In this document: positions 19,464-35,860 of the stretch, in pieces
Numbering within the stretch: position 1 is the first letter of the stretch
Layout of the letters: the number at the start of each line of letters is the position of its first letter
NCBI RefSeq assembly: GCF_000217795.1
Contig: NC_015681.1
Coordinates: forward strand, 1,541,244 to 1,605,243
Reading direction: 5' to 3'
Source: Thermodesulfatator indicus DSM 15286
GTDB lineage: Bacteria > Desulfobacterota > Thermodesulfobacteria > Thermodesulfobacteriales > Thermodesulfatatoraceae
DNA length: 64,000 nucleotides
The notes under the pieces: generated by a model
Database searches by the model: none
What the model saw: the letters and a program-made list of their open reading frames with translations, nothing else
Told to the model about the DNA's origin: nothing
Program-made: the position numbers and the translations under genes

Positions 19464-19561
19464 TTAAACGGGTCCTCCCTAAAAATCCCACCTGTTCCCA
19501 AACCCTTGACAAATCAAGCTTTTTGAGATTAGCATGTTCCTGTAAAATCCCCAAAATTCCT

Positions 19562-19591
19562 CTCTCAGGTGGGGAATAGGTGGGGAAAAAT
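19562..19591. repeat. 30-bp direct repeat, left copy; candidate integrase arm-type sites
   Basis: Contains two AGGTGGGGAA units 11 bases apart (19567-19576 and 19578-19587). The whole 30 bp recur at 31232-31261 close to the other end of the element. A third AGGTGGGGAA lies at 19723-19732, preceded 11 bases earlier by a degenerate unit. Paired 10-11-bp direct repeats just inside the att cores are the usual look of tyrosine-integrase arm sites. Confidence 0.75.
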
Positions 19592-19770
19592 TTTGGCCTA
19601 GAAAAATGCGGAAATCAGGGAGCAAAGAGAGCTTGAGGCAGGTGCTCAGGTTGAAAAATTTCGCAATTACGATCTCTCAAAATGCTTAGCTCTGTTAACA
19701 AAGCTGGCAATAAGTGAGGAGTAGGTGGGGAAGAAAAAATTAAGAAAGTTAGCGGATTTTTTGGGGCATT

Positions 19771-20961: not shown

Positions 20962-21007
20962 GATTGCCATCAAGGACTTTGAAGTAGAGCACAAGCGGAG
21001 GTTTAAA

Positions 21008-21262
21008 ATGCCTGTGAAAGTAGAGTTAACCTTCAAAGAAGACGATTTAGCCAGCTTAAGGCTATCACCTGAGGAGTTCGTTCAGGAGATGCGATTAGCG
21101 GCAGCGGTGAAGTGGTATGAGATGGGCCTAATCTCTCAAGCAAAGGCCGCTGAGATCGCCGGAGTAAGCAGGGAGGAGTTTCTAAAAGCCCTCCAGCGCT
21201 TTGGAGCTTCCCCTTTCCAGGTGACCCCCGAAGAGCTGGAAGCCGAGGTAATGAATGCCTGA
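21008..21262 (+). CDS. UPF0175 family antitoxin
   Basis: An 84-residue protein with the UPF0175 layout: an N-terminal strand region, LSPEEFVQEMRLAAAVKWYE, then a helix-turn-helix-like GLISQAKAAEIAGVSREEFLKAL. Such proteins pair with DUF3368 PIN toxins as type II antitoxins that neutralise and autorepress. SD GGAGGTTTAAA before the ATG. The last eight bases overlap the toxin gene, so the two are coupled. Confidence 0.88.
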   Translation: MPVKVELTFKEDDLASLRLSPEEFVQEMRLAAAVKWYEMGLISQAKAAEIAGVSREEFLKALQRFGASPFQVTPEELEAEVMNA

Positions 21263-21740
21263 AAAGTTCGTGGTAAACGCCTCCCCGCTTATTATCCTGG
21301 GAAAAATCAACCAGCTTCACCTTTTGCCTTCTTTGGCTGATGAACTGGTTGTTCCCTATGGAGTTTTTAAGGAAATCCTTGCTGGAAGTCCTGGAGATCC
21401 TGCCCGTGAGTGGCTCAATGGCCCAGGCAAGGCTTTCGTGAAAGAAATCGGTCCTCTGGAGCCTGAAGTGCTAAAATGGGATCTGGGGTTAGGTGAGACT
21501 GAAGTTCTGACTTTCGCTTATCGGAATCGAGACTTTATTGCTCTCCTTGATGATCGAGCTGCCCGAAAGTGTGCCAAAACTTTAGATATAAAGACCAAAG
21601 GGACTCTGGCGATTTTGGTTCTAGCACGGAAAAGGAAACTCCTGCCGGATATAACAACGGTGTTAGATAGGATTGAACAGGCAGGTTTTTATGTGTCCCC
21701 CTCCCTTTTGAAAGCGGTTAAACGCCTCGCTAGTGAGTAG
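21255..21740 (+). CDS. DUF3368 PIN-domain toxin (VapC-like)
   Basis: A 161-residue PIN-fold RNase candidate. The N terminus VVNASPLIILGKINQLHLL is the DUF3368 hallmark; the acidic cluster continues with LGLGETEVLTFA and ALLDDRAARKCAKTL, then GTLAILVLARKRKLL. It likely cleaves RNA when not bound by the upstream antitoxin. The pair would stabilise the element. The 3' end overlaps a minus-strand zinc-finger ORF by 11 bases. Confidence 0.88.
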   Translation: MPEKFVVNASPLIILGKINQLHLLPSLADELVVPYGVFKEILAGSPGDPAREWLNGPGKAFVKEIGPLEPEVLKWDLGLGETEVLTFAYRNRDFIALLDDRAARKCAKTLDIKTKGTLAILVLARKRKLLPDITTVLDRIEQAGFYVSPSLLKAVKRLASE

Positions 21741-21957
21741 TTGCTTTTTTCCTGCGCCGGTAAGCCTTTTGAGAGCAAGCCTTTGAACAGTATCTGTCAG
21801 TATTTTTCACTTTATAAATTACTCGGTCACAAACTTCACAAAAAGCAAACCGATGAGGGAAAAGTCCTGGCAAAATAAAGTAAAGAAAGCGCCAAAGATA
21901 GAATGCAGATTCAGGAGACGAAATTTTGATGACTTTCTGCTTATTATTGACTTTAAC
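21730..21957 (-). pseudogene. Zinc-ribbon ORF without a clear start; likely remnant
   Basis: On the minus strand an open frame of 75 codons encodes AFCEVCDRVIYKVKNTDRYC then SKACSQKAYRRRKK. The CxxC...YCSxxC pattern parallels the end of the 332-residue protein just upstream on the same strand (CSICGKK...KYCSDNCRQRANR). No ATG exists in frame; a TTG would give 47 residues but has no ribosome site. It looks like a decayed paralogue or a broken end of a similar gene. Confidence 0.5.
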
Positions 21958-22055
21958 TCAAGCAAAGCCACCCTTTTTAAGTTAGAAAGAGTGAAGACAA
22001 AAGGGTTAAAATGTGTCTCAGAGTTATGTCCTTCAACCGAGATGGCATCCCATGT

Positions 22056-22122
22056 GAGCTTGAAAGAAAGCGTCCCTTTTCAGGTTGCGCCTGAGAAGCT
22101 GGAGGCAGAGGTCAATCTCTAA
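22056..22122 (+). pseudogene. Remnant of a UPF0175 antitoxin C terminus
   Basis: The frame reads LKESVPFQVAPEKLEAEVNL, clearly related to the last residues of the intact antitoxin at 21008 (FGASPFQVTPEELEAEV). Only this end is recognisable; the preceding codons from 21853 show no family resemblance. It overlaps the 3' end of the opposite-strand 332-residue gene. Probably left over from a lost or rearranged toxin-antitoxin copy. Confidence 0.5.
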
Positions 22123-23110
22123 AGGCTTCTTCAATTATGGTCGGCAAATCATAAGGGATAATTATGTCCTTTTTAGAAAACTTCCTTCTGCTTTCCAAAA
22201 ACTTCTTGGCCTCTTCGGAAGAAGGTTTTTGAGAGAAGCAGTTTTGCAGTTTCCGGATGATTCTGTTAGCTCGTTGCCTACAATTATCAGAACAATATTT
22301 CTGATTACGGCGCAAAAGGATTTTCTTGCCGCAAATTGAACAAACTTTACCACTACTAAAAAGCTTATTTAGTTCTTCAAATAAGCGGTCAAACGAAATT
22401 GTTCCTGCTGATTGATAAGGCGAAAAGTCTTCTTTAATGAGTAACTTTTGACAGGCCTTATTTCTCAAATCCCAAAAAAGATGGAAATCTGACAGGTAAG
22501 ACAAATCAAAAAAGCCAGTTTCAAAGAAGTTCTCAAAGGCATAGAGACATGCTTTGTAAGCCTCAGAATACCAGAGGTTTGGTGTAATATTATTATCTTG
22601 CTGAGCTTTTGTTTGATAGAGGCGTAGAGCAGTAAGGGCGAAGCTACGAGCAATAAACTCGTTCATATTTACCTTAGGCACTATTTCTATCAGAATTTGG
22701 CTAACTCTTTTTGGGCTTGTTTTTTCGTCAATTATGGGAGTAATGCCTTCCTCTCCACTGCCTGCTGATAGAAAAGCCCTAGTGCCTTGAGGAGCTAACA
22801 GGGGAGCAAGCCACTTCTCCACTAGCGGAAGCATAGTAGTAGAAAGATAATCCGCTTTAGCCACTGAGATCAGAGAAGAAGTGTCAGAGAAAGAGAGGGT
22901 TCTTTTGATGGCAAGAAATAGAGCTTTTTCAGAAATGAGCAAGGTATAAAGCTTAAACCCCTGGCCTTTTAATAGCTCAATTGCATTAAGCTGAGGAATT
23001 TGTGTGGCTATTTTTTCAAGTTTTTCCCAGGGGACAGGATTCACTTCAGAATGAAGAAAAGGCCAAAGCTCCCAGCTACTTGTTAGTCCTTCCACTTCTA
23101 CGACAAACAT
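22112..23110 (-). CDS. Unrecognised 332-residue protein with C-terminal zinc ribbon
   Basis: I do not recognise the family. The first 240 residues look like a mixed globular domain with aromatic-rich helices (YSEAYKACLYAFENFFETGF). A zinc ribbon follows: C257, C260, C273 and C277 (CSICGKK then KYCSDNCRQRANRIIR), resembling the CxxC...CxxxC ends of CGNR-like nucleic-acid-binding proteins. The gene is AT-rich, unlike the neighbouring primase, and lies alone on the minus strand in the accessory part of the element between toxin-antitoxin and excisionase genes. This position often holds cargo such as defence genes, but no function can be claimed. Weak SD. Confidence 0.75.
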   Translation of the reverse strand: MFVVEVEGLTSSWELWPFLHSEVNPVPWEKLEKIATQIPQLNAIELLKGQGFKLYTLLISEKALFLAIKRTLSFSDTSSLISVAKADYLSTTMLPLVEKWLAPLLAPQGTRAFLSAGSGEEGITPIIDEKTSPKRVSQILIEIVPKVNMNEFIARSFALTALRLYQTKAQQDNNITPNLWYSEAYKACLYAFENFFETGFFDLSYLSDFHLFWDLRNKACQKLLIKEDFSPYQSAGTISFDRLFEELNKLFSSGKVCSICGKKILLRRNQKYCSDNCRQRANRIIRKLQNCFSQKPSSEEAKKFLESRRKFSKKDIIIPYDLPTIIEEAFRD

Positions 23111-23213
23111 TTTCTTGCCAAAGGTTGTAACGGATTTTGCAAGCGTTTCATCTTTTTGTGACTTTAAGGGAAGTTTAGTTTTTTGTCAAACACTTAGATT
23201 AAGGAGGTTTAAG

Positions 23214-23444
23214 ATGAGAGACAAGGAAGGATTGGAAAATGAGTTCCGAACCAAAGTAAAATACCTAAGTCCGAGAATGGTTGAGAGGGTCTACGGCCTT
23301 AATCGTAAGACCCTTGCCAATTTTCGGTCCCAACGCAAAGGCCCATCATTTCTCAAGGTTGGGAAAAAAGTCCTTTACCCGGTTGATGAGCTGGAGAAAT
23401 GGATCAAAAAACATGGAATTCTCATAAAAACCTCGGACAGCTAA
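23214..23444 (+). CDS. Excisionase-like winged-helix DNA-binding protein
   Basis: A 76-residue protein starting at the ATG at 23214 behind AAGGAGGTTTAAG; an in-frame ATG at 23115 lacks a ribosome site. It has the AlpA/Xis-type layout: LSPRMVERVYGLNRKTLANF (helix-turn-helix), SQRKGPSFLKVGKKVLYPVD (wing) and ELEKWIKKH. It may act as excisionase or as activator of the replication genes that start four bases after its stop. Divergent from the 332-residue gene. Confidence 0.82.
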   Translation: MRDKEGLENEFRTKVKYLSPRMVERVYGLNRKTLANFRSQRKGPSFLKVGKKVLYPVDELEKWIKKHGILIKTSDS

Positions 23445-23447
23445 ATT

Positions 23448-26400
23448 ATGGACTACCTTGAGCATTATCTCCGTTTGGGTTGGGCTATCCTTCCCCTCCG
23501 GCCGCGGAGCAAGGCTCCCGCCCTTCCCTGGGGTGGTTTCCAGAAAAAGCCTCCCGGGGTAAAGGAGTGGGTCACATGGAGAGTGATCTTTCCCATTCCA
23601 CCGCATGGGGTAGCGGTAATGTGTGGGGCTGTCTCGAACCTCATCGTAATTGACTGCGATGACAAAGAGGTTGTTTCCCGATTATTGCCGGAAATTCCTT
23701 TTGATGCACCCACATCGCAAACCAAAAGGGGATTTCACTTCTTCTTCAGGTATCAACCCGGCATCCCCAGCACGACCATTGAGGTTACGGGGATCGGCAG
23801 GCTTGAGATTAAGTCTGATAGATCTTTGGTAACTTTACCGCCGAGCACCCACCCTGAAGGCCACCGGTATGAGTGGGTTTTAGCCCCTTGGGACGTTGAT
23901 GCTTTACCGGAGTTACCGAATTGGCTCGTTGAGCTTCTGCAGAAGCAAGAGCGCCGGAAGGAGCTCGCCCGCCAAGTAGGTTATGTGAGCTTTCCCCGCC
24001 CGGGCCGCAAGCTCACGCCTGAGGCCCTGCGAGAGATCCTTACCCAAGTGGGGACGGAGATCGTCAAGGAAGTTCCAATCGGTGATCGAGAGGCTTTGCG
24101 GCTCAAGTCCTGCCCGATCTGTGGAAAATCAGAAGGCAACCCGTGGATTTGGGCTGATAGCGGGCGCCTGCTGGACTTTCGGGCCACCTGTCCGGCCTCC
24201 AGGGACCGTGGTGGTCTTTCCCTGCGGGCCTGGCTTAGAGAGATTGGACAAGAAGGCCTCCTCGCAAATTTAGAAGTCGGGGAGGCTGAAGAAGTCTCTC
24301 CCCCGGAGGTTCCGGCGGCCTCAGTTGACGAGGCCCGAGTTTTGGTGCTTAAGGCCCTCCGAGCCGGGGGAGACAGCATTATCACGGTGCCGCCAGGGGT
24401 CGGGAAGAGCCGGACGACCCTTGAGTGGCTCGCCAAGGAAGGCCCCCGGCCTGCGGTTTATTCGGTGCCGACACTTGGTTTGGCCCAGGAGCTGGCCGAG
24501 GCCGCCCGGGCCTTAACGGCCGATCCAGTCTTGGTCTTTGCCGGGCGAAATAAAGAGACCTGCTTTCGGTGGGAGGAGGCTCGGACTGCTCATGATTTGG
24601 GTTACGATCCGGGGCAAGTCCTTTGCCCCACCTGCCCGCATAACCCGAAAACGGTCGTCTTCAGTCAAAAATGCGAGTTTATGCGGCAATTCGAAGGGGT
24701 TAACAGGGAAAAAGGCCTCTTTTTCGCCTCTCATAAACTTGCCTGCCACTTAATCAAGGATTTCCTGAAAAAGGCAAAAGTTTGGATTCTCGACGAGGAG
24801 TTACACAGCCTTGTCGAGGTGGTCAAGTGTCCACTTGATGCCTTGCGCACCCTGCGGGCCGTCTTCCCGGAGGACTCCGTCACGATGCGATTGGCCGATG
24901 TGGTGCTCGAAGTGGAGGACGATCTTCACAAAGCTGCCAATGGTAAAAGCCGAGCAGAGGGGCGCATATACGCTCGGAAAGTCGGTTTTGGTCCCTGGCA
25001 GGGAAAGAAGCCTCTGGCTCAATGGCTTGGCCTTGATTTGATTCAGTTATCTCCGACTATCCGTGACGAAATTGCCCGTGTGCTCAAAGCTTACCGTAAA
25101 CCCACGCTTTTCCGCAAAGGTGTGAACCTTAAGGCCCTTCAGTGGATCCAAGAAGTAACCAGAACCGGCTTGGCTTATCTGGTAGCCCGTAAAGATCCCT
25201 GTCGGCCAATTGAGCTCCGGCGAGTCGTCAATCCCGTCCCGGAGAAGTGGCGGGGTCGTTTGATCGTGCTCGACGCGACAGCGTATCCCCCGGTGGTGGA
25301 ACGAGCCCTAAAAAGGCCAGGGGTTCAGGTGCTCGATATTAGAGTGCCCGTTGAAATGCGGACAGCATGGATAAAGCGGAGCGTGAGCAAGACGGCGATT
25401 GCAAGAGAGAAAGGACGCAAAACGGCCATTAAGGCCCTCAAGCAAGCTCTCAAAGAGATCAAGGCGGAAAAGATCCTCATCTTTTGCCATCAGGCGATCA
25501 AGGCCAAGGTCGAGGAGGTTGTGGCTCAAGATCCCCGGAAAATCGTTGTCACCCATCATTTTGGGGCCGAAACGAGAGGCACAAACCAGTTTGCGGATTT
25601 TGAAACGGTGATCCTCCTCGGTTTGCCGGTTGTCAATCCTGCGGCTTACTATGATACGGCTCTGGCCCTCGGTTTGAGCGAACAGGAATGGGAAGACTGG
25701 CTTCATCTCCTGGCTCAGGCCGGGGCATGGCAGGAAATTCATCGGACTCGCCCTGTCCTCCAGCCAGGCAAACAAGTGCTGGTGATTGCCCCCCGATGGC
25801 CCTTCAAGGAGTGGCTCGGTAGGCCGCGAAGAGTGATCGAACCGGAAGAGGTTAAAGGTGCTCTGGATCTTGCGACCAAGGTTCTCCTTTTGTGGGTTGA
25901 GGATTTTGGGTTCGTTTATGTCGAAATCGCTCTCCTTCTGAGCATCGGTCGCCCTGAGCAGATCCCGCCAGTAGAGGTCCGAGCCGAGGTCTGGCAACGG
26001 ATCAGGGGTGCTTTCCCGAAAGAGTTTGTGCGATTTTTCACAAAGTTGGAATCCCTTTATAGGGCAAGTGGGAACCCCTTGAGCCGGTCGAAACATCCTA
26101 GGCCTTCCCAAGAGATCCCTGTTAAGGGAGGGGCAAGGGGTTCCCAGAAGCCCTTTATATATATTCTTAAAGGGCACCGGGAACCCCTTGAATTGGGAAT
26201 TTCTGGGAACTCCAAGGGGTTCCCACCCCCCTTTAAGGGAAATCTCATCACTAATGCCGATAACAAGATTGAGTTTTTCGATAAAAAGTGGTGGCCGAAA
26301 CTTTTTGCCCGTCTCCGGAAGGCCCGTCCGGATCTTCCTGTCTTTGAGGTGCAGATCAGGACCAAAGGCGGCCTGCAAAAGACCCGCGGCATTGGTGATA

Positions 26401-26480
26401 TAAAAACTGCTCAAGACTTTTATCGGGCGCTTGGCCGAGAAATTGATTTCAACTCTTGGCGCGAGGTGGTTAATGTTTGA
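23448..26480 (+). CDS. Primase-polymerase fused to an Fe-S SF2 helicase-like domain
   Basis: Candidate replication initiator of the element, 1010 residues. Residues 1-165 are a bifunctional primase/polymerase domain: GWAILPLRPRSKAPALPW, IDCDD (68-72, catalytic Asp pair), KRGFHFFF (H97) and DRSLVTLPPSTHP. A small zinc-ribbon-like stretch follows (C222, C225, C248). From 310 comes a helicase: Walker A VPPGVGKS (314-321), four Cys (C372, C393, C396, C409) spaced like the XPD/DinG iron-sulphur domain, FFASHKLACHL, Walker B ILDEELHS (447-454), LIVLDATAYPP, and an Arg-containing EIHRTRP. Residues about 868-931 are low-complexity and are encoded by an origin-like repeat array. The last 42 residues resemble the next protein. 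High GC compared with the host. Confidence 0.88.
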   Translation: MDYLEHYLRLGWAILPLRPRSKAPALPWGGFQKKPPGVKEWVTWRVIFPIPPHGVAVMCGAVSNLIVIDCDDKEVVSRLLPEIPFDAPTSQTKRGFHFFFRYQPGIPSTTIEVTGIGRLEIKSDRSLVTLPPSTHPEGHRYEWVLAPWDVDALPELPNWLVELLQKQERRKELARQVGYVSFPRPGRKLTPEALREILTQVGTEIVKEVPIGDREALRLKSCPICGKSEGNPWIWADSGRLLDFRATCPASRDRGGLSLRAWLREIGQEGLLANLEVGEAEEVSPPEVPAASVDEARVLVLKALRAGGDSIITVPPGVGKSRTTLEWLAKEGPRPAVYSVPTLGLAQELAEAARALTADPVLVFAGRNKETCFRWEEARTAHDLGYDPGQVLCPTCPHNPKTVVFSQKCEFMRQFEGVNREKGLFFASHKLACHLIKDFLKKAKVWILDEELHSLVEVVKCPLDALRTLRAVFPEDSVTMRLADVVLEVEDDLHKAANGKSRAEGRIYARKVGFGPWQGKKPLAQWLGLDLIQLSPTIRDEIARVLKAYRKPTLFRKGVNLKALQWIQEVTRTGLAYLVARKDPCRPIELRRVVNPVPEKWRGRLIVLDATAYPPVVERALKRPGVQVLDIRVPVEMRTAWIKRSVSKTAIAREKGRKTAIKALKQALKEIKAEKILIFCHQAIKAKVEEVVAQDPRKIVVTHHFGAETRGTNQFADFETVILLGLPVVNPAAYYDTALALGLSEQEWEDWLHLLAQAGAWQEIHRTRPVLQPGKQVLVIAPRWPFKEWLGRPRRVIEPEEVKGALDLATKVLLLWVEDFGFVYVEIALLLSIGRPEQIPPVEVRAEVWQRIRGAFPKEFVRFFTKLESLYRASGNPLSRSKHPRPSQEIPVKGGARGSQKPFIYILKGHREPLELGISGNSKGFPPPFKGNLITNADNKIEFFDKKWWPKLFARLRKARPDLPVFEVQIRTKGGLQKTRGIGDIKTAQDFYRALGREIDFNSWREVVNV
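26053..26240. repeat. Origin-like repeat array within the primase-helicase gene
   Basis: Four copies of a 12-mer occur in alternating orientation: GGGAACCCCTTG at 26070 and 26179, and its reverse complement CAAGGGGTTCCC at 26134 and 26213. Between copies two and three lies an AT-rich palindrome, GCCCTTTA (26150-26157), ten AT-rich bases, TAAAGGGC (26168-26175). Further CCCTTT/AAGGG palindromes lie at 26053-26064 and 26230-26240. The layout, two iteron pairs flanking an AT-rich hairpin at the 3' end of a primase gene, resembles origins of satellite elements such as SaPIs. Confidence 0.7.
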
Positions 26481-26718
26481 TGCAAAAACCCTACTTTCTC
26501 TGTTGGGCATAGAGCTTTCCGATGAGGAACTGGAGCAAACCCTCATCCAGGTAGCCCGACAAAGCGGCCAGCCTCTGATCGAACAAAAGATGCCGGACGG
26601 CTCCTGGCGCATCGTGGGCGTTGGCTCGATCAAGGCCATGCGGCGGTTTTATCGGCGGATAGGCATGCGGCCCAGGGTTTCTTTTAAAGACTTGCGGGAA
26701 AGGTGGATCACGCAATGA
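26473..26718 (+). CDS. Small protein sharing a C-terminal module with the primase-helicase
   Basis: An 81-residue protein beginning at the ATG at 26473, which overlaps the primase-helicase stop by eight bases and is preceded by GAGGTGG. The first half is acidic and Leu-rich (LLGIELSDEELEQTLIQVAR). Residues 45-70 (GVGSIKAMRRFYRRIG) match the last residues of the primase-helicase (GIGDIKTAQDFYRALG). Function unknown; translational coupling suggests a partner of the replication protein. Confidence 0.75.
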   Translation: MFDAKTLLSLLGIELSDEELEQTLIQVARQSGQPLIEQKMPDGSWRIVGVGSIKAMRRFYRRIGMRPRVSFKDLRERWITQ

Positions 26719-26739
26719 AAAAGCCGTGGTCCAAAGACC

Positions 26740-28437
26740 ATGGCCTGGGGGATGAAGATGAGTATGAGACTTGAAGCCGGACTTGAAACTAACCTACTGC
26801 AAAGCTCGGTTCACAGTCAAGGCCTTACCTGGTCCCTGGTGAGGCCTCGGAGTGACCTGCTGTTACGCCCCTACCAGGGGAGGGTCCTTGAGCGCATAAT
26901 GGACGCCTACCTTGATGGGCGGCAGTCGGTGGCGATCTCGCTTCCGACCGGATGCGGAAAGACCATCGTCTTCCTAGCCCTGGCCCGGGGTGTGGTTGAG
27001 GCCGGGGGCCGTGTCCTCATCATTGCTCACCGGGATGAACTTATTCGACAGCCAGCCGAGAAGCTCTCCCTGGTGTGGCCCGGAGCACCTGAGCCGGGCA
27101 TTATCAAGGCCGAGCGGTTTGAGCCGGACTGCCCCATAGTCCTGGCTTCGATCCAAACCCTATGGCGCAGGCTTGACCGCTTGCCCCATGGTTTTGACCT
27201 CCTCGTGATAGATGAGGCCCACCATGCGGCGGCGTCAACCTACCGGGAGACCCTTGACCGGCTACTTGAGCTCAACCCGGCCATGAAGATCCTGGGCGTC
27301 TCGGCGACCCTCTTCCGCAGAGACGGGGAGAGCCTCCGGGAAATCTTTGAAGAGGTAGTCTTTGAATACAGCGTCCTTGAGGCCATAGCGGATGGCTATC
27401 TTTGCGGGATTGACTATCGGGCGGTCAAGACCGGGTGTGATCTCTCCGGAGTGAGGTTTGACTATCGGGCCGGGGATTTTGCGGTCAACCAGCTGGCTCA
27501 GACCGTTAACACCCCGGAGCGGAATGAGTTTGCCGTTGAGACCTGGCTTGAACTGGCAAAAGGGCGCAAGACCATAACCTTTTGTGTGGATGTAAAGCAC
27601 GCCCGGGACCTGGCTGAGACCTTCCGGGCCTACGGTGTGGAAGCTCAGACCGTAACCGGCCAGACCCCTCTTGAAGAACGCCGGGCCATGCTCAAGGCCT
27701 TCGCCCGGGGTGAGATCCCGATCATCACGAACTGCCAGGTGTTAACCGAAGGTTTTGACGACCCGGCGGTGGACTGCCTTCTCCTCGCCCGGCCCACAGC
27801 AAGCAAGGCCCTTTATGTGCAGATGGTGGGCCGGGGGTTAAGGCTTTACCCTGGAAAGAAGGACTGTTTAGTGCTTGATTTGCTTGACAACTCAAGCCGT
27901 CACAGCCTGGTTTCCATCGCAGACCTTGATCCGAAGCTAAAGCGCCGGATTGAGCTTGAAGAGGCCGTGGGGAGGGGAAGTAGGGAGAGCGTCCAGCTAG
28001 ACCTTGCCCTCGCTTCCCAGATCCTGGGGGTGGAGGAGCGCCAGATCTTCGATCCTTCGGCTTTCTACTGGGCCCAGGGAGAACACGGTTGGGCCGCAAG
28101 CCTGGGAGACGGCCGGACGCTTTACATCCGGCGAGTCAAGAAGACCAAAAGGGAAGAGCTTTTTGTGCCTTACCTTATCGAGCAAGAAGGCATCCGGGCT
28201 CTCACTTCTCGGCCCGTGGACATCGAATTGGCTTTTGGTGTGGCTAACGGAGTGCTTCGGGATCAGGGGGCGGCAGCCCTTTACAGGCCGGACGCCTCCT
28301 GGCGGAACTACCCGCCCACGGAGAAGCAGATTGAGTTTTGTGAGCGGTGGGGCCTGCCCAGGCCCAGGACCAAGGGCGAGGGGGCAGATCTCATAACCCT
28401 GGCGATAGCCGAGTGGAATTTCAAAAAATTCAGCTGA
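26740..28437 (+). CDS. SF2 DEAH-box helicase (SSL2/RAD25-like)
   Basis: A 565-residue helicase. Visible motifs: LRPYQ (43-47), Walker A SLPTGCGKT (67-75), IIAHRDELIRQ, DEAHH (158-162), GVSATLFR near 190, TFCVDVKHARDLAETFR and the arginine-finger motif QMVGRGLR near 380. The C-terminal 150 residues are element-specific, with KQIEFCERWGLPRP near the end. Probably unwinds DNA for replication or processing of the element. ATG codons at 26740, 26752, 26758 and 26764 are all possible; no clear SD decides. Confidence 0.9.
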   Translation: MAWGMKMSMRLEAGLETNLLQSSVHSQGLTWSLVRPRSDLLLRPYQGRVLERIMDAYLDGRQSVAISLPTGCGKTIVFLALARGVVEAGGRVLIIAHRDELIRQPAEKLSLVWPGAPEPGIIKAERFEPDCPIVLASIQTLWRRLDRLPHGFDLLVIDEAHHAAASTYRETLDRLLELNPAMKILGVSATLFRRDGESLREIFEEVVFEYSVLEAIADGYLCGIDYRAVKTGCDLSGVRFDYRAGDFAVNQLAQTVNTPERNEFAVETWLELAKGRKTITFCVDVKHARDLAETFRAYGVEAQTVTGQTPLEERRAMLKAFARGEIPIITNCQVLTEGFDDPAVDCLLLARPTASKALYVQMVGRGLRLYPGKKDCLVLDLLDNSSRHSLVSIADLDPKLKRRIELEEAVGRGSRESVQLDLALASQILGVEERQIFDPSAFYWAQGEHGWAASLGDGRTLYIRRVKKTKREELFVPYLIEQEGIRALTSRPVDIELAFGVANGVLRDQGAAALYRPDASWRNYPPTEKQIEFCERWGLPRPRTKGEGADLITLAIAEWNFKKFS

Positions 28438-28514
28438 ATTCAACTGATTAGGTGGCTTTTTTGATTTCGGCCAGGCCGGAGATGTCTTTGAGCTTTTGGC
28501 TGGCGTTCAGGTTT
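28438..28514. other. Gap between the helicase and minus-strand small genes
   Basis: No convincing gene. The wider stretch 28438-28941 lacks any long ORF; it holds the two small minus-strand ORFs listed next and a divergent promoter region. A further 37-codon GTG-started basic frame on the minus strand (ending near 28451) is possible but unsupported. Confidence 0.4.
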
Positions 28515-28634
28515 CTATTCCAACTGGCCTTCTTCCGAGTGGCTACCTTGTTTTGGCGCACTTTCTTCTTTCTGTTCCCAATCAGGGCTAATCAACTCGA
28601 AACTGAATTCGCCTGGAGTGAAGTTAAGCTTCAT
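28515..28634 (-). CDS. Tiny ORF downstream of the ribbon-helix-helix gene
   Basis: A 39-residue frame starting MKLNFTPGEFSFELISPDWE and ending in a charged stretch. Its ATG (28634) overlaps the end of the ribbon-helix-helix gene by 11 bases, and GGCGGAGGAG upstream is a good ribosome site, which supports translation. No family is recognised. It could be the partner of the upstream regulator or a chance frame. Confidence 0.4.
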   Translation of the reverse strand: MKLNFTPGEFSFELISPDWEQKEESAPKQGSHSEEGQLE

Positions 28635-28797
28635 TTTTCTCCTCCGCCACTTCCCGGCCATACTTGCGGAGAAGATCCCTCATAGCCTCCTCGAGGAGGT
28701 CGTTTAGAGGCCTTTCTAACTCTACCGATAAATGTCTTATTTCTTTCAATAATTTCCGATCAAGCTTGGTGGAAAAAGGCCTACGATCTTTCCCCAT
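28624..28797 (-). CDS. Ribbon-helix-helix DNA-binding protein
   Basis: A 57-residue protein, MGKDRRPFSTKLDRKLLKEI at the start, then RHLSVELERPLNDLLEEAMRD and a basic end. This is the CopG/Arc-type pattern: a short beta-strand (RRPFSTKL), helix, turn and second helix (RPLNDLLEEAMRDLL). SD GGAGGAAAGA. It lies divergently from the small phage-like gene at 28942, with two palindromes between them, so it likely represses both promoters. It could also be an antitoxin without a recognised toxin. Confidence 0.75.
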   Translation of the reverse strand: MGKDRRPFSTKLDRKLLKEIRHLSVELERPLNDLLEEAMRDLLRKYGREVAEEKNEA

Positions 28798-28840
28798 TCT
28801 TTCCTCCTGATGAATTTATAGCCACTTTTTATCTTTTTAG

Positions 28841-28902
28841 CAAGATAGACCTACATCTTGACTAATTGTTACTATAGGCTTACTATCATCATAGCATGAT
28901 AG
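28841..28902 (+). promoter_or_regulatory. Promoter with two palindromic operators upstream of the late small genes
   Basis: TTGACT (28858-28863) and TACTAT (28881-28886) are spaced by 17 bases, a good vegetative promoter toward 28942. Two inverted repeats overlap it: CAAGAT (28841-28846) with ATCTTG (28855-28860) at the -35 side, and CTATCAT (28883-28889) with ATGATAG (28896-28902) over the -10. A dimeric repressor binding there would block transcription; the adjacent ribbon-helix-helix protein is the obvious candidate. Confidence 0.65.
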
Positions 28903-28941
28903 AAAGACTATAAGCCCCCGACAACGGAAGAGGAGGTAAAA

Positions 28942-29166
28942 ATGGCGGTAATCCACACCTGGCGAACCAAGGATGGAACCAAGACCGGCAGGTTGACTCC
29001 TCTAAAAGCTATTCAAGCCAAATGCCTGGACTGCTCTTGCTGGAGTCAAAGGGAGGTTCGTCTCTGTCCGGTAAAGCTCTGCCCCCTCTGGCCGTTCAGA
29101 ACAGAAAAAATCTACGCCCAATTCTTAGAACAAGAGGGAAGGGTTTCGGATGAGCCTTCAAAATAG
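28942..29166 (+). CDS. Small Cys-rich phage-type protein
   Basis: A 74-residue protein with the pattern AIQAKCLDCSCWSQREVRLC then PVKLCPLWPFR (Cys at 28, 31, 33, 42 and 47). Very similar small zinc-finger-like proteins are frequent in phages and prophages, where their role is unknown. Strong SD GAGGAGG, ATG start, and a regulated promoter directly upstream. First gene of the right-hand gene block of the element. Confidence 0.75.
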   Translation: MAVIHTWRTKDGTKTGRLTPLKAIQAKCLDCSCWSQREVRLCPVKLCPLWPFRTEKIYAQFLEQEGRVSDEPSK

Positions 29167-29365
29167 GCCTTCTGTGAAAATTGAAATCCTGAAACCCTTG
29201 AATACCAAGGCCTTTTTTGAAGAATTTTTGACGATCTCTTCAAACAGGTATCTACCTACCTGTTGGCGGAGATCGCCTCTCAAGTGGGCTTCTACGCTGC
29301 GGTTTTCAGGCAAAGAAGCCCATTTCTGTGAAAGGACTAAACCAAACCACCGAGGAGGAGGAACC

Positions 29366-29977
29366 ATGAAGGAGAAAGCTTTCCCCAGGTATTACAACCA
29401 GGCCCAGGCAAACCTGGCAGAGGCCCTAATCCCTTCCTTTGGGGCGGGAGAGGCCGTCGGCAGGCTTATGGTGGCTGCTGCTCGTGGCCAGCGAGCAGCC
29501 CGTGAGATCATGGCCCTGCGGGAGAAATGGGCTGAAGAGCAAGGCGAGGCCCCAGATCACCAGACCGTTAATGTCCTGGATTATCAGGGCATTTCAGGCC
29601 TTGCCCAAAACCCCATCCTCACAGACCGGGACCTTGAGGCCCTGGGGATGCTCCTCGTGCGCATCTCCGAACTCCAGGCGGGAAATGGCCTTGCCTGGGA
29701 ATTCAACCGCATTCAAACCGGAGAGTGGCTGGAACGGTTAGCCTTCAAACTAAATCTCGTCTCCGCCGCGGAGGCTGAGCCGGAGAAGATCAAGGCGCTC
29801 ATCGAGGACCTGGCTGCCGAGATCGAGCGGATCGGAAAGATCCTCTCCCAGGCCACACCCTGGGAAGAGCCGGCGAGAGAAGCCGCCTGGGAGGTGCGGA
29901 AAAGGGCTGAAGAAAGAGTAAACGACCTTATGGAAGAGATCCTTGAAAACGAAGAGGTCTCGAGGAGAAAATTATGA
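29366..29977 (+). CDS. Hypothetical 203-residue helical protein
   Basis: The ATG at 29366 behind GAGGAGGAGGAACC is the likely start; the frame is open further upstream but without family-like composition. The protein is strongly helical and charged, with an Ala/Glu-rich C-terminal half (IKALIEDLAAEIERIGKIL) that could form a coiled coil. No known domain is seen. The stop overlaps the next gene as ATGA, so both are coupled. Confidence 0.65.
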   Translation: MKEKAFPRYYNQAQANLAEALIPSFGAGEAVGRLMVAAARGQRAAREIMALREKWAEEQGEAPDHQTVNVLDYQGISGLAQNPILTDRDLEALGMLLVRISELQAGNGLAWEFNRIQTGEWLERLAFKLNLVSAAEAEPEKIKALIEDLAAEIERIGKILSQATPWEEPAREAAWEVRKRAEERVNDLMEEILENEEVSRRKL

Positions 29978-30222
29978 ACAAAAAAGAATTTCTCACCCGC
30001 CTTGCCGAGCTTGTGGAAGAGGCCGTAGATACCTACCAGGACCTTAACCGCAAGACTTCAGACCAGAAAGAAGGCCTCATCGAAGAGGCCATCTCCTGGG
30101 GAATTTGCGCTATTTATCTCATCAGGGCCGTCGAGGCCCTCATTGGAAGGAAAATTTCCATTACTCCGCTATCTCCAATTGAAGAACTGGAAAAAGTGCT
30201 TGATGAAGAGTTAAAATCTTAA
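29974..30222 (+). CDS. Hypothetical 82-residue acidic helical protein
   Basis: Starts MNKKEFLTRLAELVEEAVDT and is helical and acidic, with one hydrophobic stretch (WGICAIYLIRAVEALIG). Four-base overlap with the preceding gene. No domain recognised. Its place in the small-gene block suggests an element-specific function in late steps or regulation. Confidence 0.6.
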   Translation: MNKKEFLTRLAELVEEAVDTYQDLNRKTSDQKEGLIEEAISWGICAIYLIRAVEALIGRKISITPLSPIEELEKVLDEELKS

Positions 30223-30249
30223 GAAACAATGTGAGACGCTTGAAAAAAA

Positions 30250-30642
30250 ATGAAACCTTTGTCTCCTAAAAAGGCCAAATTCGTCGAGCTACTTTCCGGC
30301 GGGCTTTCCAACGAGCAGGCTGGAAAGAAGCTCGGCATAAGCCGGGCCACGGCCTGGCGATGGGCAAATGAGCCTGAGATCAAGGCCCGGCTTTCCGAGC
30401 TACACCAGGAGCGCCTGAAACGGGCACACGGAAGGCTCCTCTCGGCCACCGAGACTGCTATTGAGACCCTGGAGCGCCTTTGCCATCACAAATCAGGCTA
30501 CGTGGCCGTCCAGGCGGCTAGGTCTATCCTTGACTTGGTCCTTAAGCTTCACGAACATCTGGAGCTTAAAGAACGCCTGGAAGCCATAGAAAAAAGACTC
30601 AAAGAGCTTGAAGGAGAGGGCCATGTTAAGAAGAAAGCTTGA
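30250..30642 (+). CDS. Helix-turn-helix protein, terminase-small-subunit-like
   Basis: A 130-residue protein with N-terminal HTH: LSPKKAKFVELLSGGLSNEQ then AGKKLGISRATAWRWANEPE. A long helix and coiled coil follow (LELKERLEAIEKRLKELEG). This layout is that of phage phBC6A51-type HTH proteins and some small terminase subunits, which recognise packaging sites. No large terminase is present in the element, as in satellites that borrow a helper's. The assignment is tentative. Confidence 0.65.
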   Translation: MKPLSPKKAKFVELLSGGLSNEQAGKKLGISRATAWRWANEPEIKARLSELHQERLKRAHGRLLSATETAIETLERLCHHKSGYVAVQAARSILDLVLKLHEHLELKERLEAIEKRLKELEGEGHVKKKA

Positions 30643-30874
30643 TACCCTGGAGAAGAAAGTGGAGAGCCTCTCCATCGCTGAGGAGAACTACCCTTCAAAG
30701 ATTGTGGTTAACCTTCTCAGCTGTAATCATCCGAACAAGAAAGAGAGGCTTCTCTCTCATGCTGAAAGTGCAGCAGAAATCGTCATAAGGGCCGGTTGCG
30801 GAGGGGACGAGAAGGACTGCAAAAACTGCCCTTACTACGCATTCCAGGGTGTCAATCGTCTTCGATTTGGCTGA
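30623..30874 (+). CDS. Hypothetical small protein with C-terminal Cys motif
   Basis: An 83-residue protein from the ATG at 30623, behind AAGGAGAGG; it overlaps the HTH gene by 20 bases. It starts with a coiled-coil-like stretch (LRRKLDTLEKKVESLS) and ends with AGCGGDEKDCKNCPYYAF, whose Cys spacing could bind a metal. No family recognised. Confidence 0.6.
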   Translation: MLRRKLDTLEKKVESLSIAEENYPSKIVVNLLSCNHPNKKERLLSHAESAAEIVIRAGCGGDEKDCKNCPYYAFQGVNRLRFG

Positions 30875-31163
30875 CTAGCCGGGAGCTTAGCCAGCAGTAA
30901 AGAGATTTAACCGGTATGACGTAAGACCTCTGCCCAAGCTTGACATATTCCAGGTCTCCTGCCTTTAATGCCCGATAGACCAGGTCAGGATGGCGGTCTA
31001 AAACTTCTGCTATATTTACTGGCTTCCAGAACCGCTTATGGCCAAAGTTTCTCTGGAACCAGGTATCAAACCAATCAGGGATGATGATGTCTTCAGAGAA
31101 GCCCTTTTTTTGGTAGGTCTTTTTCTGAGGAGCCTTGATTTTGAGCTTGAGCCTCTTCGGCAT
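30852..31163 (-). CDS. Second excisionase-like / wing-helix protein
   Basis: ATG at 31163 gives 103 residues; TTG at 31199 is a less likely start. After a basic N terminus comes IIIPDWFDTWFQRNFG and then KPVNIAEVLDRHPDLVYRAL with KAGDLEYVKLGQRSYVIPVK, the helix-turn-helix and wing of Xis/AlpA-type proteins. It is the gene nearest the intact att site and lies opposite to the other genes, a common place for xis. Its DIIIP stretch is echoed in the 332-residue protein. Confidence 0.65.
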   Translation of the reverse strand: MPKRLKLKIKAPQKKTYQKKGFSEDIIIPDWFDTWFQRNFGHKRFWKPVNIAEVLDRHPDLVYRALKAGDLEYVKLGQRSYVIPVKSLYCWLSSRLVSQIEDD

Positions 31164-31231
31164 GAATGAATACTTATCTGCTACCTTGCCTAGGCACAAG
31201 GTAAATCATCCGGGTAAGGGGCCAATTTTCG

Positions 31232-31261
31232 CTCTCAGGTGGGGAATAGGTGGGGAAAAAT
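31232..31261. repeat. 30-bp direct repeat, right copy; candidate integrase arm-type sites
   Basis: Identical to 19562-19591 and in the same orientation, with two AGGTGGGGAA units at 31237-31246 and 31248-31257. It ends 42 bases before the right att core. The presence of the same paired sites at both ends supports a role as integrase arm sites. Confidence 0.75.
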
Positions 31262-31303
31262 GCTAGGTGAGGGAAACCCGCTTTCTGAAACCCTTGAAAT
31301 TAT

Positions 31304-31380
31304 TGGTGCCCCCGGGAGGACTCGAACCCCCAACCAACGGCTTAGAAGGCCGCTGCTCTATCCGGTTGAGCTACGGGGGC
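31304..31380 (-). tRNA. tRNA-Arg(TCT)
   Basis: On the minus strand the acceptor GCCCCCG (from 31380) pairs with CGGGGGC, followed by discriminator A and an encoded CCA. D arm GCTC/GAGC, anticodon stem GCGGC/GCCGT with loop CTTCTAA (anticodon TCT, arginine AGA), and T arm GGGGG/CCTCC with loop TTCGAGT all fold. The 3' 49 bases are the attachment site of the integrated element and remain intact after integration. Confidence 0.97.
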
Positions 31381-31640: not shown

Positions 31641-31989
31641 TTACCTTCTCCTATTCAAAGTTTACATCGTTGTGGATAATAGATTTCTTTCTTTCTGACA
31701 ACACATATCGAGCTGATTTTTGAAAAAGTAAAATCTCAAAGAAATGATTATCAAATCTTTCTAGATTTTTCTTTAAGAATTTTGGTCAGGTTTTGAAAAG
31801 TTAAAAGTGTTCAAAAGAAATGTTAAGGGGCTTTAGGAACAATTCCTATATATAATCTTATAGAGATTTTACTAAAAAATATTAAAATATTTGCTTTTTT
31901 ATATAAAGTTTTGTATTATTTCTTTTAGAAATACACCCTAATACCTCCTCTATTTTAATAACGGGCGCGCTAGTCGCGCCCCTTCTCCA
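31641..31989. other. AT-rich intergenic region with a GC hairpin
   Basis: No ORF is supported. The region is very AT-rich except for GGGCGCG (31963-31969), CTAGT and CGCGCCC (31975-31981), a stable hairpin. It is not followed by a T-run on either strand, so it is a weak terminator at best. It lies directly upstream of the promoter for the UGA-containing gene. Confidence 0.5.
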
Positions 31990-32018
31990 TTGGCAAAAAT
32001 GTCTTTTTTCTTTATATT
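31990..32018 (+). promoter_or_regulatory. Vegetative promoter of the UGA-containing small gene
   Basis: TTGGCA (31990-31995) and TATATT (32013-32018) are separated by exactly 17 bases. Transcription should start near 32025, giving a short leader with GGGAGGT ribosome site before the ATG at 32042. The same transcript probably continues into asd, which starts 16 bases after the small gene. Confidence 0.7.
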
Positions 32019-32041
32019 GCGTCTAAAATAAGGGAGGTTTT

Positions 32042-32239
32042 ATGATCAGGCTTGGGCAAAAAGTAGGTCTTAAATGTCGTAATTGTGCTGGTGAACTTTA
32101 TTTAGTTAGGACCTGACGCCGTATTGCTCTCCGTTGTGAGAGCTGTGGGAATTCTTTCAGCGTGAGGGAATATTATGACGAATTAACCCCTGAACTTGAA
32201 GAATTATTTTATAATATTCGCTGTGACCGTTTTTTATAA
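32042..32239 (+). CDS. Small dual-CxxC selenoprotein candidate with in-frame UGA (Sec25)
   Basis: A 65-codon frame runs from ATG to TAA with a single in-frame TGA at 32114-32116. Reading it as selenocysteine gives MIRLGQKVGLKCRNC, then LVRT-U-RRIALRCESCGNSF and a conserved-looking acidic end ELTPELEELFYNIRCDRFL. Cys pairs are C12/C15 and C32/C35. Nine bases after the UGA lies a hairpin with G in the second loop position, as bacterial SECIS elements require. The frame has a strong SD (GGGAGGT) and its own promoter. From memory it matches a family annotated as dual CXXC motif small (seleno)protein. A nonsense mutation is the alternative, but coding quality continues after the UGA. Function is unknown, presumably redox or metal binding. 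Confidence 0.8.
32126..32143 (+). promoter_or_regulatory. Bacterial SECIS-like hairpin after the UGA
   Basis: GCTCTC (32126-32131), loop CGTTGT (32132-32137) and GAGAGC (32138-32143) form a perfect 6-bp stem. It begins nine bases after the UGA; the conserved G of the loop is at position 17 after the codon, within the range known for bacterial SECIS elements. It would recruit SelB with Sec-tRNA. Confidence 0.75.
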
Positions 32240-32255
32240 ACTTTAGGAGGCGAAC

Positions 32256-33278
32256 ATGAAAGAGTTTAACGTAGCCGTAGTGGGGGCCACTGGAGCGGTG
32301 GGAAGAATGATGCTTCAGGTGCTTGAGGAAAGGAACTTTCCCGTTAAAAACCTACGCCTTTTTGCTTCAGAAAGATCTCGTGGTTTAAAAATCCCTTTCA
32401 AAGGCGAAGAAATAGAAGTTGAAGTTTTGGGCGAACAAAAAAGTTTTTCCGGTATAGACATAGCCCTTTTCTCAGCCGGGGCTTCGCGTAGCCTGGAATA
32501 CGCCCCTAAATTTGCCGCTGACGGCGCCGTAGTGGTTGACAACTCCAGTGCTTGGCGTATGGACCCTCAAGTTCCCCTCGTAGTGCCAGAGGTTAATCCT
32601 CACGCGGTAGCGGATTACAAAAATAAGGGCATAATTGCCAATCCCAATTGTTCAACCATTCAGATGGTTGTGGCCTTAAAACCCCTTTACGATTTTAGCC
32701 GTATTAAGCGGGTGGTGGTTTCTACATATCAGGCGGTATCCGGGGCCGGGCAGAAGGCTATAAACGAACTTATGGATCAGACCAAGGCCTGGTGTAAAGG
32801 AGAGACACTTCCTGAGCCTCAGGTTTTCCCTCACCAGATTGCCTTTAATTGTCTGCCGCACATAGATGTTTTTTTAGATAATGGCTACACCAAAGAAGAG
32901 ATGAAAATGGTAAATGAGACCAAAAAAATTATGGAAGACGAAAAAATCGGCGTTACCGCTACCACGGTGAGAGTGCCGGTGTTTTACGGGCACGCCGAGG
33001 CGGTAAATATTGAAACCGAAAAGAAGATCTCCGCTGAGAAAGCAAGGGAACTTCTTAGCAATTTTCCTGGCATCGTGGTTATAGACGAGCCTGGCGAGAA
33101 GAAATATCCTCTACAGATTGAAATTGCCGGCCGGGACGAAGTTTTCGTTGGCCGCATTCGCGAAGATGAATCCATTGAAAACGGTTTGAACCTATGGGTA
33201 GTGGCGGATAATCTCCGCAAAGGAGCAGCTACCAACGCGGTTCAAATCGCCGAGCTTTTGGCCGAGAAATACCTTTAA
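32256..33278 (+). CDS. asd: Aspartate-semialdehyde dehydrogenase
   Basis: Reduces aspartyl phosphate to aspartate semialdehyde with NADPH, for lysine, methionine, threonine and diaminopimelate. The 340-residue protein has the dinucleotide motif GATGAVG (10-16), the active-site Cys C132 in NPNCSTIQM, and the substrate motif VSTYQAVSGAG. Length is normal. SD AGGAGG before the ATG. It directly precedes recN, with stop and start adjacent. Confidence 0.96.
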   Translation: MKEFNVAVVGATGAVGRMMLQVLEERNFPVKNLRLFASERSRGLKIPFKGEEIEVEVLGEQKSFSGIDIALFSAGASRSLEYAPKFAADGAVVVDNSSAWRMDPQVPLVVPEVNPHAVADYKNKGIIANPNCSTIQMVVALKPLYDFSRIKRVVVSTYQAVSGAGQKAINELMDQTKAWCKGETLPEPQVFPHQIAFNCLPHIDVFLDNGYTKEEMKMVNETKKIMEDEKIGVTATTVRVPVFYGHAEAVNIETEKKISAEKARELLSNFPGIVVIDEPGEKKYPLQIEIAGRDEVFVGRIREDESIENGLNLWVVADNLRKGAATNAVQIAELLAEKYL

Positions 33279-34898
33279 ATGCTTCTGGAATTAAGGCTTA
33301 AGAACTTCGTTTTAATAGAAGAGGCCCGACTCAGTTTTGAGCCGGGCTTTGTTGTTTTTACCGGTGAGACGGGGACAGGCAAATCCCTTTTAATAAAAAG
33401 TCTAAAACTCGCCCTTGGGGCGCGCAGCAGCCCGGGCCTTATTAGGCCAGGAGCTAAAGAGGCCATCCTTGAAGCCGTAGTCTCAGCTGACGAGAGAACG
33501 AAAAGACACCTTGAAAAATTTGGCCTTGAGCCTACTCATGAATTAATTATAAGGCGAGTCATTACTCCTGACCGCTCCCGGGCCTATCTTAACGGTTCTC
33601 CAGTTACCCTTCAGATGCTTTCAGAAATTTTAAGTGATCTCGTAGTCATTGCTGGCCAGCACGAGTATCAGACACTTAACAAGCCTGAAGAACGCCTTCT
33701 TACCATTGATACCTTTGGCGAACTATTTTCTTTAAGAAAAGCTTACGAAGAGGCCTATCTTGACTTTCGTCAAAAACTAGAAAAGCTCCAATCCCTTCAA
33801 GAAAAGGTAAAAAACGCCTTAAAAGAAGAAGACTTCCTTAAGTTTCAACTGCAGGAAATAGAGGCTGTCTCCCCTGAGCCGGGAGAAGATATAGAGATAG
33901 AAGAAAAGCTAAAGCGCCTCAAAAACCTGGCCCGCTTGAAAGATCTTGCCAGTAACGCTAACGCAGGAGTGGAAAAAAGTTTTTCTTTAGTTTCTGCGGC
34001 CAAAAAGTCTCTGGGCCAGGCGTTAGAATTTGATAAAAAACTTGCACCCCTAGCCGAAAGGCTTGAAACACTCAGCTACGAGCTTGAGGATGTAAGTCTT
34101 GAGCTTTCTGATTATTTGAGAAGCCTTGAAATTGCCCCAGATGAGTTAGAAGCCCTGGAGGAGAGGCTTTTTGCCATAAAGCGTTTGAAGCGCAAATACG
34201 GGCCCACACTTGAAGACGTGCTTTCTCATTATGAAAAAATAAAAAAAGACCTGGAAGATATTTCTACAGGTGAAGAACACTTACAGGAACTTGAAGAAGA
34301 AGCCAAGCTTGCCGAAAAGAAGGCCTTGGAGCTGGCCGAAGAACTTTCTAACAGGCGCAAACAGACCGCTGAGCTTTTAAGCCAAAATGTAAACAGGCTC
34401 CTTAAAGAACTTGCCCTTGAAGGAGCAAGGTTTCGTATTTCCTTTACGAGGAAAGATCTTTCTCCTACAGGTTTTGACCAGGTTGAGTTTTTAGTCACCA
34501 CCCATCCTAAAGCCCCTTGGCGGCCCATGGCTGAGGTGGCCTCAGGGGGTGAGCTTTCGCGTTTCTTTCTGGCCATAAAGGCCGCGCTTTCAAAAAGAGC
34601 CTCGGCCCAGGCCCTTATTTTTGACGAAATAGACGCAGGTGTTGGCGGTATGGTGGCCCATCGTTTAGGGAAGCTTCTGGCAGAACTTGCTACCAATTAC
34701 CAGGTAATCTGCGTTACCCACCTGCCGCAAATAGCTGCCCTGGCCAGCCAGCACTTTGTGGTGGAAAAAGAAATTACAAGCGATGAGGCCCTTACTTCCA
34801 TAAGGCCTCTTTCAAACGAAGAAAGAGTAGAAGAAATTGCCCGCATGCTAGGCGACCCTACGGCCAGAGACGTAGCTAAGAAACTTCTTGGCCTATGA
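33279..34898 (+). CDS. recN: DNA repair protein RecN
   Basis: RecN is an SMC-like ATPase for double-strand break repair. Walker A GETGTGKS (29-36) follows FVVFT; a long coiled-coil middle (about 150-350) is Glu/Lys/Leu-rich; the ABC signature EVASGGELSRF and Walker B LIFDEIDAGVGG lie near 420-455, and TYQVICVTHLPQIAA closes the head. 539 residues. Starts on the base after the asd stop; overlaps the next gene by four bases. Confidence 0.96.
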   Translation: MLLELRLKNFVLIEEARLSFEPGFVVFTGETGTGKSLLIKSLKLALGARSSPGLIRPGAKEAILEAVVSADERTKRHLEKFGLEPTHELIIRRVITPDRSRAYLNGSPVTLQMLSEILSDLVVIAGQHEYQTLNKPEERLLTIDTFGELFSLRKAYEEAYLDFRQKLEKLQSLQEKVKNALKEEDFLKFQLQEIEAVSPEPGEDIEIEEKLKRLKNLARLKDLASNANAGVEKSFSLVSAAKKSLGQALEFDKKLAPLAERLETLSYELEDVSLELSDYLRSLEIAPDELEALEERLFAIKRLKRKYGPTLEDVLSHYEKIKKDLEDISTGEEHLQELEEEAKLAEKKALELAEELSNRRKQTAELLSQNVNRLLKELALEGARFRISFTRKDLSPTGFDQVEFLVTTHPKAPWRPMAEVASGGELSRFFLAIKAALSKRASAQALIFDEIDAGVGGMVAHRLGKLLAELATNYQVICVTHLPQIAALASQHFVVEKEITSDEALTSIRPLSNEERVEEIARMLGDPTARDVAKKLLGL

Positions 34899-35860
34899 AG
34901 AAAAAAGCTCTACTTCTATTTTCTGAAGGTCTGGATAGCATTTTAGCGGGGAAGCTTATTGCCTCGCAGGAAATAGACGTAGTAGCCGTGCGTTTTATTA
35001 CGCCTTTTTTCGGCTGGCAATGGAAAGGGCGCGAAAAAGAGTTTGACCAGTACATCAGGGAAGAATTCGGTTTTACTGCTGGCCTAATAAAAGACATCAC
35101 TGAAAAATACTTGGAAATATTAAAAGCCCCGCTGCATGGATACGGAAGCCAGTTTAACCCCTGCCTTGACTGCAAGATCCTCATGTTGAAGGAGGCCAAG
35201 AGTCTTTTAGACGAACTTGGGGCTGGTTTTATAATCACTGGTGAGGTGGTAGGCCAGCGTCCTATGTCCCAACTTAAACACTCTTTGAGGCACATTGAAA
35301 AGGCCACCGGGCTTGAGGGGCTTCTATTACGCCCGTTATCGGCCCTAAAACTTAAAGAGACCCTCCCGGAAAAACAAGGAATTGTTAAGAGAGAGAAACT
35401 TCTTGATATTTCCGGGCGTGGACGAAAAAGGCAATTGGCCCTGGCTAAAGAGCTTGGTCTTAGGAAGATTCCCTCTCCGGCCGGGGGGTGCCTGCTCACG
35501 GATCCGGCTATTGCCCCGCGAATTAAGCGTTACTTTGAGCTAAAAGACGGAAAAGTAGCCCCGTGGGAGGCCGAGGTTTTGACTTTTGGTAGGCATTTTG
35601 AGTTATCCAAAGGGAGCTGGCTTATACTTGGGCGTAACGCCGAAGAAAACGAAAAAATTTTTCGCCTGTCCCCGAAAGATAGCGTCCTTTTAAAACTTTC
35701 GGATATACCCGGGCCTTTAGGCCTTTTTTTAATATTTCGCGAGGAAGATTTAGAAGAAGCGGCCAAGCTGGTTAAAAAATACGCCCCAAAAGCCCGAAAT
35801 CTTGAAAAAGTAGCGGTAAAAATCATTTTTGATGAAAAAGAACGAGAGATTTACGTATGA
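34895..35860 (+). CDS. PP-loop ATPase, tRNA thiolation-like
   Basis: The N terminus has the PP-loop in the form LFSEGLDSILA (8-18; SGGxDS with Glu for the first Gly). NPCLDCKILMLKEA near residue 90 contributes a Cys pair typical of MnmA/ThiI-like sulphur transferases. GEVVGQRPMSQ and the SPAGGCLLTDP motif follow. A C-terminal region of about 100 residues resembles DUF814 proteins. It probably activates a tRNA uridine for thiolation, but the exact position is unknown. Four-base overlap with recN. Confidence 0.75.
   Translation: MKKKALLLFSEGLDSILAGKLIASQEIDVVAVRFITPFFGWQWKGREKEFDQYIREEFGFTAGLIKDITEKYLEILKAPLHGYGSQFNPCLDCKILMLKEAKSLLDELGAGFIITGEVVGQRPMSQLKHSLRHIEKATGLEGLLLRPLSALKLKETLPEKQGIVKREKLLDISGRGRKRQLALAKELGLRKIPSPAGGCLLTDPAIAPRIKRYFELKDGKVAPWEAEVLTFGRHFELSKGSWLILGRNAEENEKIFRLSPKDSVLLKLSDIPGPLGLFLIFREEDLEEAAKLVKKYAPKARNLEKVAVKIIFDEKEREIYV

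Follow-up and report, generated by a model that had tools for sequence, protein, structure and literature searches.

A very probable UGA-decoding member of the small dual-CXXC selenoprotein family NF041197 in Thermodesulfatator indicus

Small proteins in which two CXXC pairs surround a selenocysteine (Sec) or cysteine are catalogued in NCBIfam as NF041197, ‘dual CXXC motif small (seleno)protein’. The family is the former hypothetical protein OS_HP3, to which a 2026 review assigns the motif RxU (PMC13188914) and which also appears, with no motif given, in a 2022 review (PMC9312934). A consensus model of the bacterial SECIS element is described in the more recent of the two (PMC13188914). Here we examine a gene at positions 32042–32239 of the window, the whole stretch of 64,000 nucleotides analysed from Thermodesulfatator indicus DSM 15286; this gene and the features assigned to it below all lie on the + strand.

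The gene is a further member of this already known family. Its product matches NF041197 at 67.3 bits (cut-off 40) over profile positions 1–53 of 53, bearing out the family membership proposed by the first-pass annotation, a reading of the sequence without database searches; a Pfam search with the 65-residue product gave no model above cut-off. The product has the family layout, with C12/C15 and C32/C35 around U25, the RxU motif as R23-T24-U25 and the small size, and it shares the C-terminal CDR(I/L/F) common to most form-1 relatives. Nothing essential sets it apart from NF041197/OS_HP3, although the present member comes from a thermophile and adjoins asd. The NF041197 model also covers a second form, with GxU and without the CDR tail, set apart by a well-supported branch; the gene at 32042–32239 belongs to form 1. 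Since the kind is known from the NF041197 and OS_HP3 listings, the gene is one more member of it. The annotation had expected standard gene callers to miss or split the gene, which should not hold for the NCBI pipeline: NF041197 is already catalogued and used there, so the pipeline should now call it.

Gene layout and the UGA column

The frame runs from an ATG at 32042 through 65 codons to a TAA at 32237–32239, with a single in-frame TGA as codon 25 (32114–32116). The motif CRNC (codons 12–15, 32075–32086) precedes this codon and CESC (codons 32–35, 32135–32146) follows it, and both CxxC pairs are invariant in alignment A1. Translated with TGA as Sec, the product is MIRLGQKVGLKCRNCAGELYLVRTURRIALRCESCGNSFSVREYYDELTPELEELFYNIRCDRFL. 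A Shine–Dalgarno sequence, AGGGAGG (32031–32037), ends 4 nt before the ATG, and a consensus scan finds a promoter-like TTGGCA-17-TATATT at 31990–32018 that agrees at 10 of 12 positions, a match that says nothing on function. The frame with its one TGA and two CxxC pairs is thus exactly as first described, and the ribosome-binding site and promoter claimed for it are present as sequence, promoter activity not being implied.

A single-copy non-coding block upstream of the gene (31934–32003) is near-identical in T. autotrophicus, and 8 of the 10 host-family genomes sampled have it. It contains ACCTCCTC, which is anti-Shine–Dalgarno-like, then a hairpin (GGGCGCG/CGCGCCC) and a T-rich tail, and it resembles the 3′ end of a small RNA, with no match in Rfam. 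A second apparent copy, at C1:462482, lies inside other sequence and lacks the hairpin, and we take it as chance. The window also holds an integrative element of ~11.9 kb (19415–31352), flanked by a 49-bp perfect direct repeat (19415–19463 and 31304–31352) that is the 3′ part of tRNA-Arg(tct) at 31304–31380. Its cargo comprises an integrase-like gene (19771–20961), a primase/helicase-like ORF, a phage-type helicase and a terminase small subunit-like gene.

Within a phylum sample of 395 genomes, 112 have family matches, of which a few score very low and are probably due to chance. The column homologous to Sec25 was counted in the 122 distinct homologous genes that could be aligned from the fetched loci: it is TGA in 95 and TGC or TGT in 27, with no other codon and neither TAA nor TAG at this site. 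The cysteine that the first-pass annotation suggested seeking among relatives is thus present; it characterises two large clades and turns up in a few isolated cases, with Sec-TGA elsewhere, and the tree needs 4 Sec/Cys changes, many of its forks being open because the alignment has few columns. The same TGA is found in all sampled members of the genus, and T. autotrophicus and T. atlanticus are among the named relatives carrying the gene. Relative to the T. autotrophicus orthologue, the codons before the UGA give dN 0.08, dS 0.95 and dN/dS ~0.08, and those after it dN 0.09, dS 0.92 and dN/dS ~0.10; these similar ratios indicate that the two halves are selected as one protein.

The selenocysteine genes that had been predicted are all found in the host genome (2,322,224 bases in one contig): selA (638 bits), selB (395 bits), selD (372 bits) and a tRNA-Sec with anticodon TCA beside two tRNA-Ser genes. 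Across the sample, selA is missing in only two family-positive genomes, both incomplete. The host selD (L052, C1:1520604–1521527) itself has one in-frame TGA; SelD is a selenoprotein in some other organisms.

The hairpin after the UGA

Nine bases past the TGA lies the hairpin GCTCTC(CGTTGT)GAGAGC (32126–32143), with a 6-bp stem and a loop CGUUGU (32132–32137) whose second base, at 32133, is G; stem, spacing and G are exactly as the first reading gave them. Against SECIS criteria of a stem of 4–16 bp, a loop of 3–9 nt, a G in the first two loop bases and a fold of ≤−7.5 kcal/mol, the hairpin has 6 bp, 6 nt, G second and −12 kcal/mol. It resembles the bacterial SECIS consensus in its small loop, its G in the first two bases followed by U, its 6-bp stem and its folding energy, but differs in that the apical loop starts 15 nt past the UGA as drawn, short of the 16–37 nt of the model, unless the loop C-G is counted as stem, which makes the gap 16. 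An Rfam search over 31700–32400 returned no match.

Taken alone, the hairpin is not beyond chance. Its folding energy has a z of −1.22, with 27 of 200 shuffles folding as well, and when a hairpin of this kind may lie anywhere, 31% of synonymous recodings contain one of equal quality (P 0.31); six Watson–Crick pairs in the exact register have P 0.0037 under synonymous recoding. Its conservation among relatives, by contrast, is clearly not random. Since the single-sequence hairpin is not significant, relatives were used to judge the element, namely 25 form-1 Sec genes with A/T/V-LRC after Sec and 25 Cys homologues. The stem columns of the Sec genes form 5.16 of 6 Watson–Crick pairs, compared with 3.01 (sd 0.20) under synonymous recoding and 3.78 after exchange of 3′ arms among genes; the Cys homologues form 1.28. 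The codon of Leu30 tracks that of residue 33, in the combinations CTC/GAG, CTG/CAG, TTG/CAA and CTT/AAG.

In a 19-sequence alignment, 94.7% of cells are paired and 4 of the 6 pairs show double changes. Double-change cells number 19 versus 5.2 in shuffles, and the covariation score is 0.493 versus 0.254 shuffled, with 0 of 500 shuffles as high, counts that are not probabilities because the sequences are related; every slid register is worse. Mean folding energy separates Sec from Cys homologues poorly (mean z −1.26 versus −0.91), and among the folding and hairpin tests the register-specific one alone is decisive. Because the stem is kept by compensatory changes and is absent in Cys homologues, the hairpin is very probably a SECIS element, a call first made from this one sequence that stands through covariation in relatives and would not stand on the isolated hairpin.

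In the mechanism that we propose, the hairpin at 32126–32143 would recruit SelB and tRNA-Sec(UCA), the ribosome would read the UGA at 32114 as selenocysteine, and a 65-residue CxxC–Sec–CxxC product would result. That this is a working NF041197 selenoprotein gene decoded in this way is, judging from the sequence comparisons, close to certain. Two other accounts of the UGA have to be weighed. The TGA could be a recent nonsense mutation that made a pseudogene of a Cys-type gene, as a single in-frame stop would suggest, but the same codon stands in 95 distinct homologues of many families, including the whole sampled genus, is never replaced by TAA or TAG, is followed by codons as purified as those before it, and occurs in a genome with Sec machinery. 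Neither observation that the first-pass annotation had said would favour such a mutation, a genome without selB or selC or homologues in which neither Cys nor Sec fills the column, occurred: selB and tRNA-Sec are present and 0 of 122 genes have another codon. We reject this account, which the conserved TGA and the purifying selection downstream leave barely credible. Alternatively, the UGA might be recoded without a SECIS element or not as Sec, by plain read-through or by Cys insertion in selenium-poor cells. The lack of significance of the lone hairpin and the Cys homologues, which indicate that Cys is tolerated at the site, would fit this, but the covariation of the stem in register, its absence from Cys homologues and the complete set of Sec genes make it very improbable. 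The family match, the TGA/Cys-only column, the Sec genes and the hairpin covariation all agree with the original proposal that the UGA encodes Sec, and we conclude that it is very probably read as selenocysteine.

Predicted fold and form-1 neighbours

An AlphaFold2 model built from six sequences (the window gene and L116–L120) has a mean pLDDT of 76, with strands at 7–11, 18–23, 28–32 and 38–40 and helices at 41–47 and 50–59. In this model the CxxC pairs lie between strands 1–2 and 3–4, the arrangement found in zinc ribbons, and Sec25 sits on the turn between strands 2 and 3 among basic neighbours (RTURR). A Foldseek search with the model gave no significant match (best E 0.29), Pfam zinc ribbons stayed below cut-off and profile matches to the PDB were weak. 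The closest neighbours by structure and profile, all of them weak, are the RNA polymerase small subunits, ZifS TTHA0897 and the regulatory chain of ATCase, zinc ribbons that share the two CxxC knuckles on antiparallel strands but have no Sec or Cys in the connecting turn. As no zinc-ribbon match is significant, we do not claim membership in a zinc-ribbon family; with the modest confidence of the model, we regard a zinc-ribbon-like fold as probable, with Sec placed at the turn that connects two CxxC knuckles.

On this model and the motif layout, the two CxxC pairs would most likely coordinate a single metal ion within a fold of the zinc-ribbon type, and Sec25, in its basic turn and away from the metal site, would serve as a reactive redox group. 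A cytoplasmic role in thiol/sulfur redox or persulfide handling in sulfate reducers is the function that we put forward, as a tentative proposal, possible rather than probable. Form-1 neighbours differ between lineages and so give this role no direct support.

An asd-like gene (32256–33278, + strand), identified as an ORF and in the neighbourhoods of L057, L059, L061 and the window, starts 16 nt past the selenoprotein stop with its own Shine–Dalgarno sequence. In the four sampled genomes of the genus, the order is selenoprotein gene, asd-like, recN-like, a ThiI/NFACT-R gene and, further on, lpxD-like, where we take asd, recN and lpxD to be so from their sequences and not from a family search. 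The gene after recN lies at 34895–35857 in the window and joins a ThiI-like domain to an NFACT-R_2 domain. Elsewhere, form 1 adjoins fabD-like, truA (PF01416), pyrE-like (Pribosyltran), alaS/recA-like or heptosyltransferase genes, and no constant neighbour was found across the sampled loci. In one Cys-type clade of form 1 (L098, L099, L100, L102 and L103), the gene comes immediately after a pyrE-like phosphoribosyltransferase gene or overlaps it, and the C terminus reads IIYD, not CDRI.

Two further alternatives concern what the protein does. Sec ligates metals in some selenoproteins, and with four cysteines flanking it Sec25 could be a fifth ligand or part of the metal site instead of a separate redox group. 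Such a ligand role has been suggested for other selenoproteins (PMC13188914). The model, of modest confidence, would however put Sec25 in the turn between strands 18–23 and 28–32, opposite the knuckles in a zinc ribbon, and we consider ligation unlikely. In the four sampled genomes of the genus the gene immediately precedes asd-like and recN-like genes, which might instead point to a service to amino-acid synthesis or DNA repair, outside redox or sulfur metabolism. As other lineages carry form 1 beside fabD-, truA-, pyrE- or alaS/recA-like genes, this linkage is lineage-specific and the role quite improbable.

A second form beside dsr genes

The host genome also encodes a diverged form-2 paralogue with an in-frame TGA (C1:1650205; L056 6173–6382, C1 about 1650172–1650381). 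Its complete frame reaches 46.1 bits against NF041197; it has GxU, lacks the CDR tail and carries a GTGAG(GTGT)CTCAC hairpin in the right place. The split between form 1 and form 2 on the tree has support of 100/100. Form 2 of the genus has a topA-like gene on one side and, in three of the four genomes, a phosphorylase-superfamily gene on the other. In other lineages its neighbours are genes of dissimilatory sulfite reduction: NCBIfam identifies dsrM, dsrK, dsrO, dsrP and dsrA around it at L065 and dsrA and dsrB beside it at L114, and clusters of the same dsr genes occur around it at L064, L067, L069, L071 and L104. By coordinates, dsrA is no more than about 6 kb away from it in G029, G205, G249, G270 and G290. 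All told, 12 sampled genomes of five families have form 2 adjacent to dsrAB or dsrMKJOP or at most about 6 kb from them. A literature search of incomplete coverage found no mention of this neighbourhood, and the two-form split, with both forms selenoproteins here, and the place of form 2 beside genes for sulfite reduction may be new results.

Strong dsrA matches are present in 107 of the 112 family-positive genomes, and dsrA is over cut-off in 188 of all 395. The association between family and dsrA has a Fisher odds ratio of about 52, a value from approximate counts that is uncorrected for kinship and confounded by phylogeny. The adjacency of form 2 to dsr genes is a possible functional link between the selenoprotein and dissimilatory sulfite reduction. 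The stronger reading, that the family is a selenoprotein module of that pathway, with form 2 a component or maintenance factor of Dsr and form 1 a paralogue acting on the same reduced-sulfur chemistry, seems doubtful.

The family gains a member that comparative evidence, SECIS covariation among it, supports well, and a reading from sequence alone was able to spot a selenoprotein gene split by its UGA. What the protein does and the place of form 2 near dsr genes are of more interest than the gene at 32042–32239 itself. Within the phylum, nearly all family-positive genomes also have dsrA, which together with the position of form 2 in several lineages provides a first testable functional lead.
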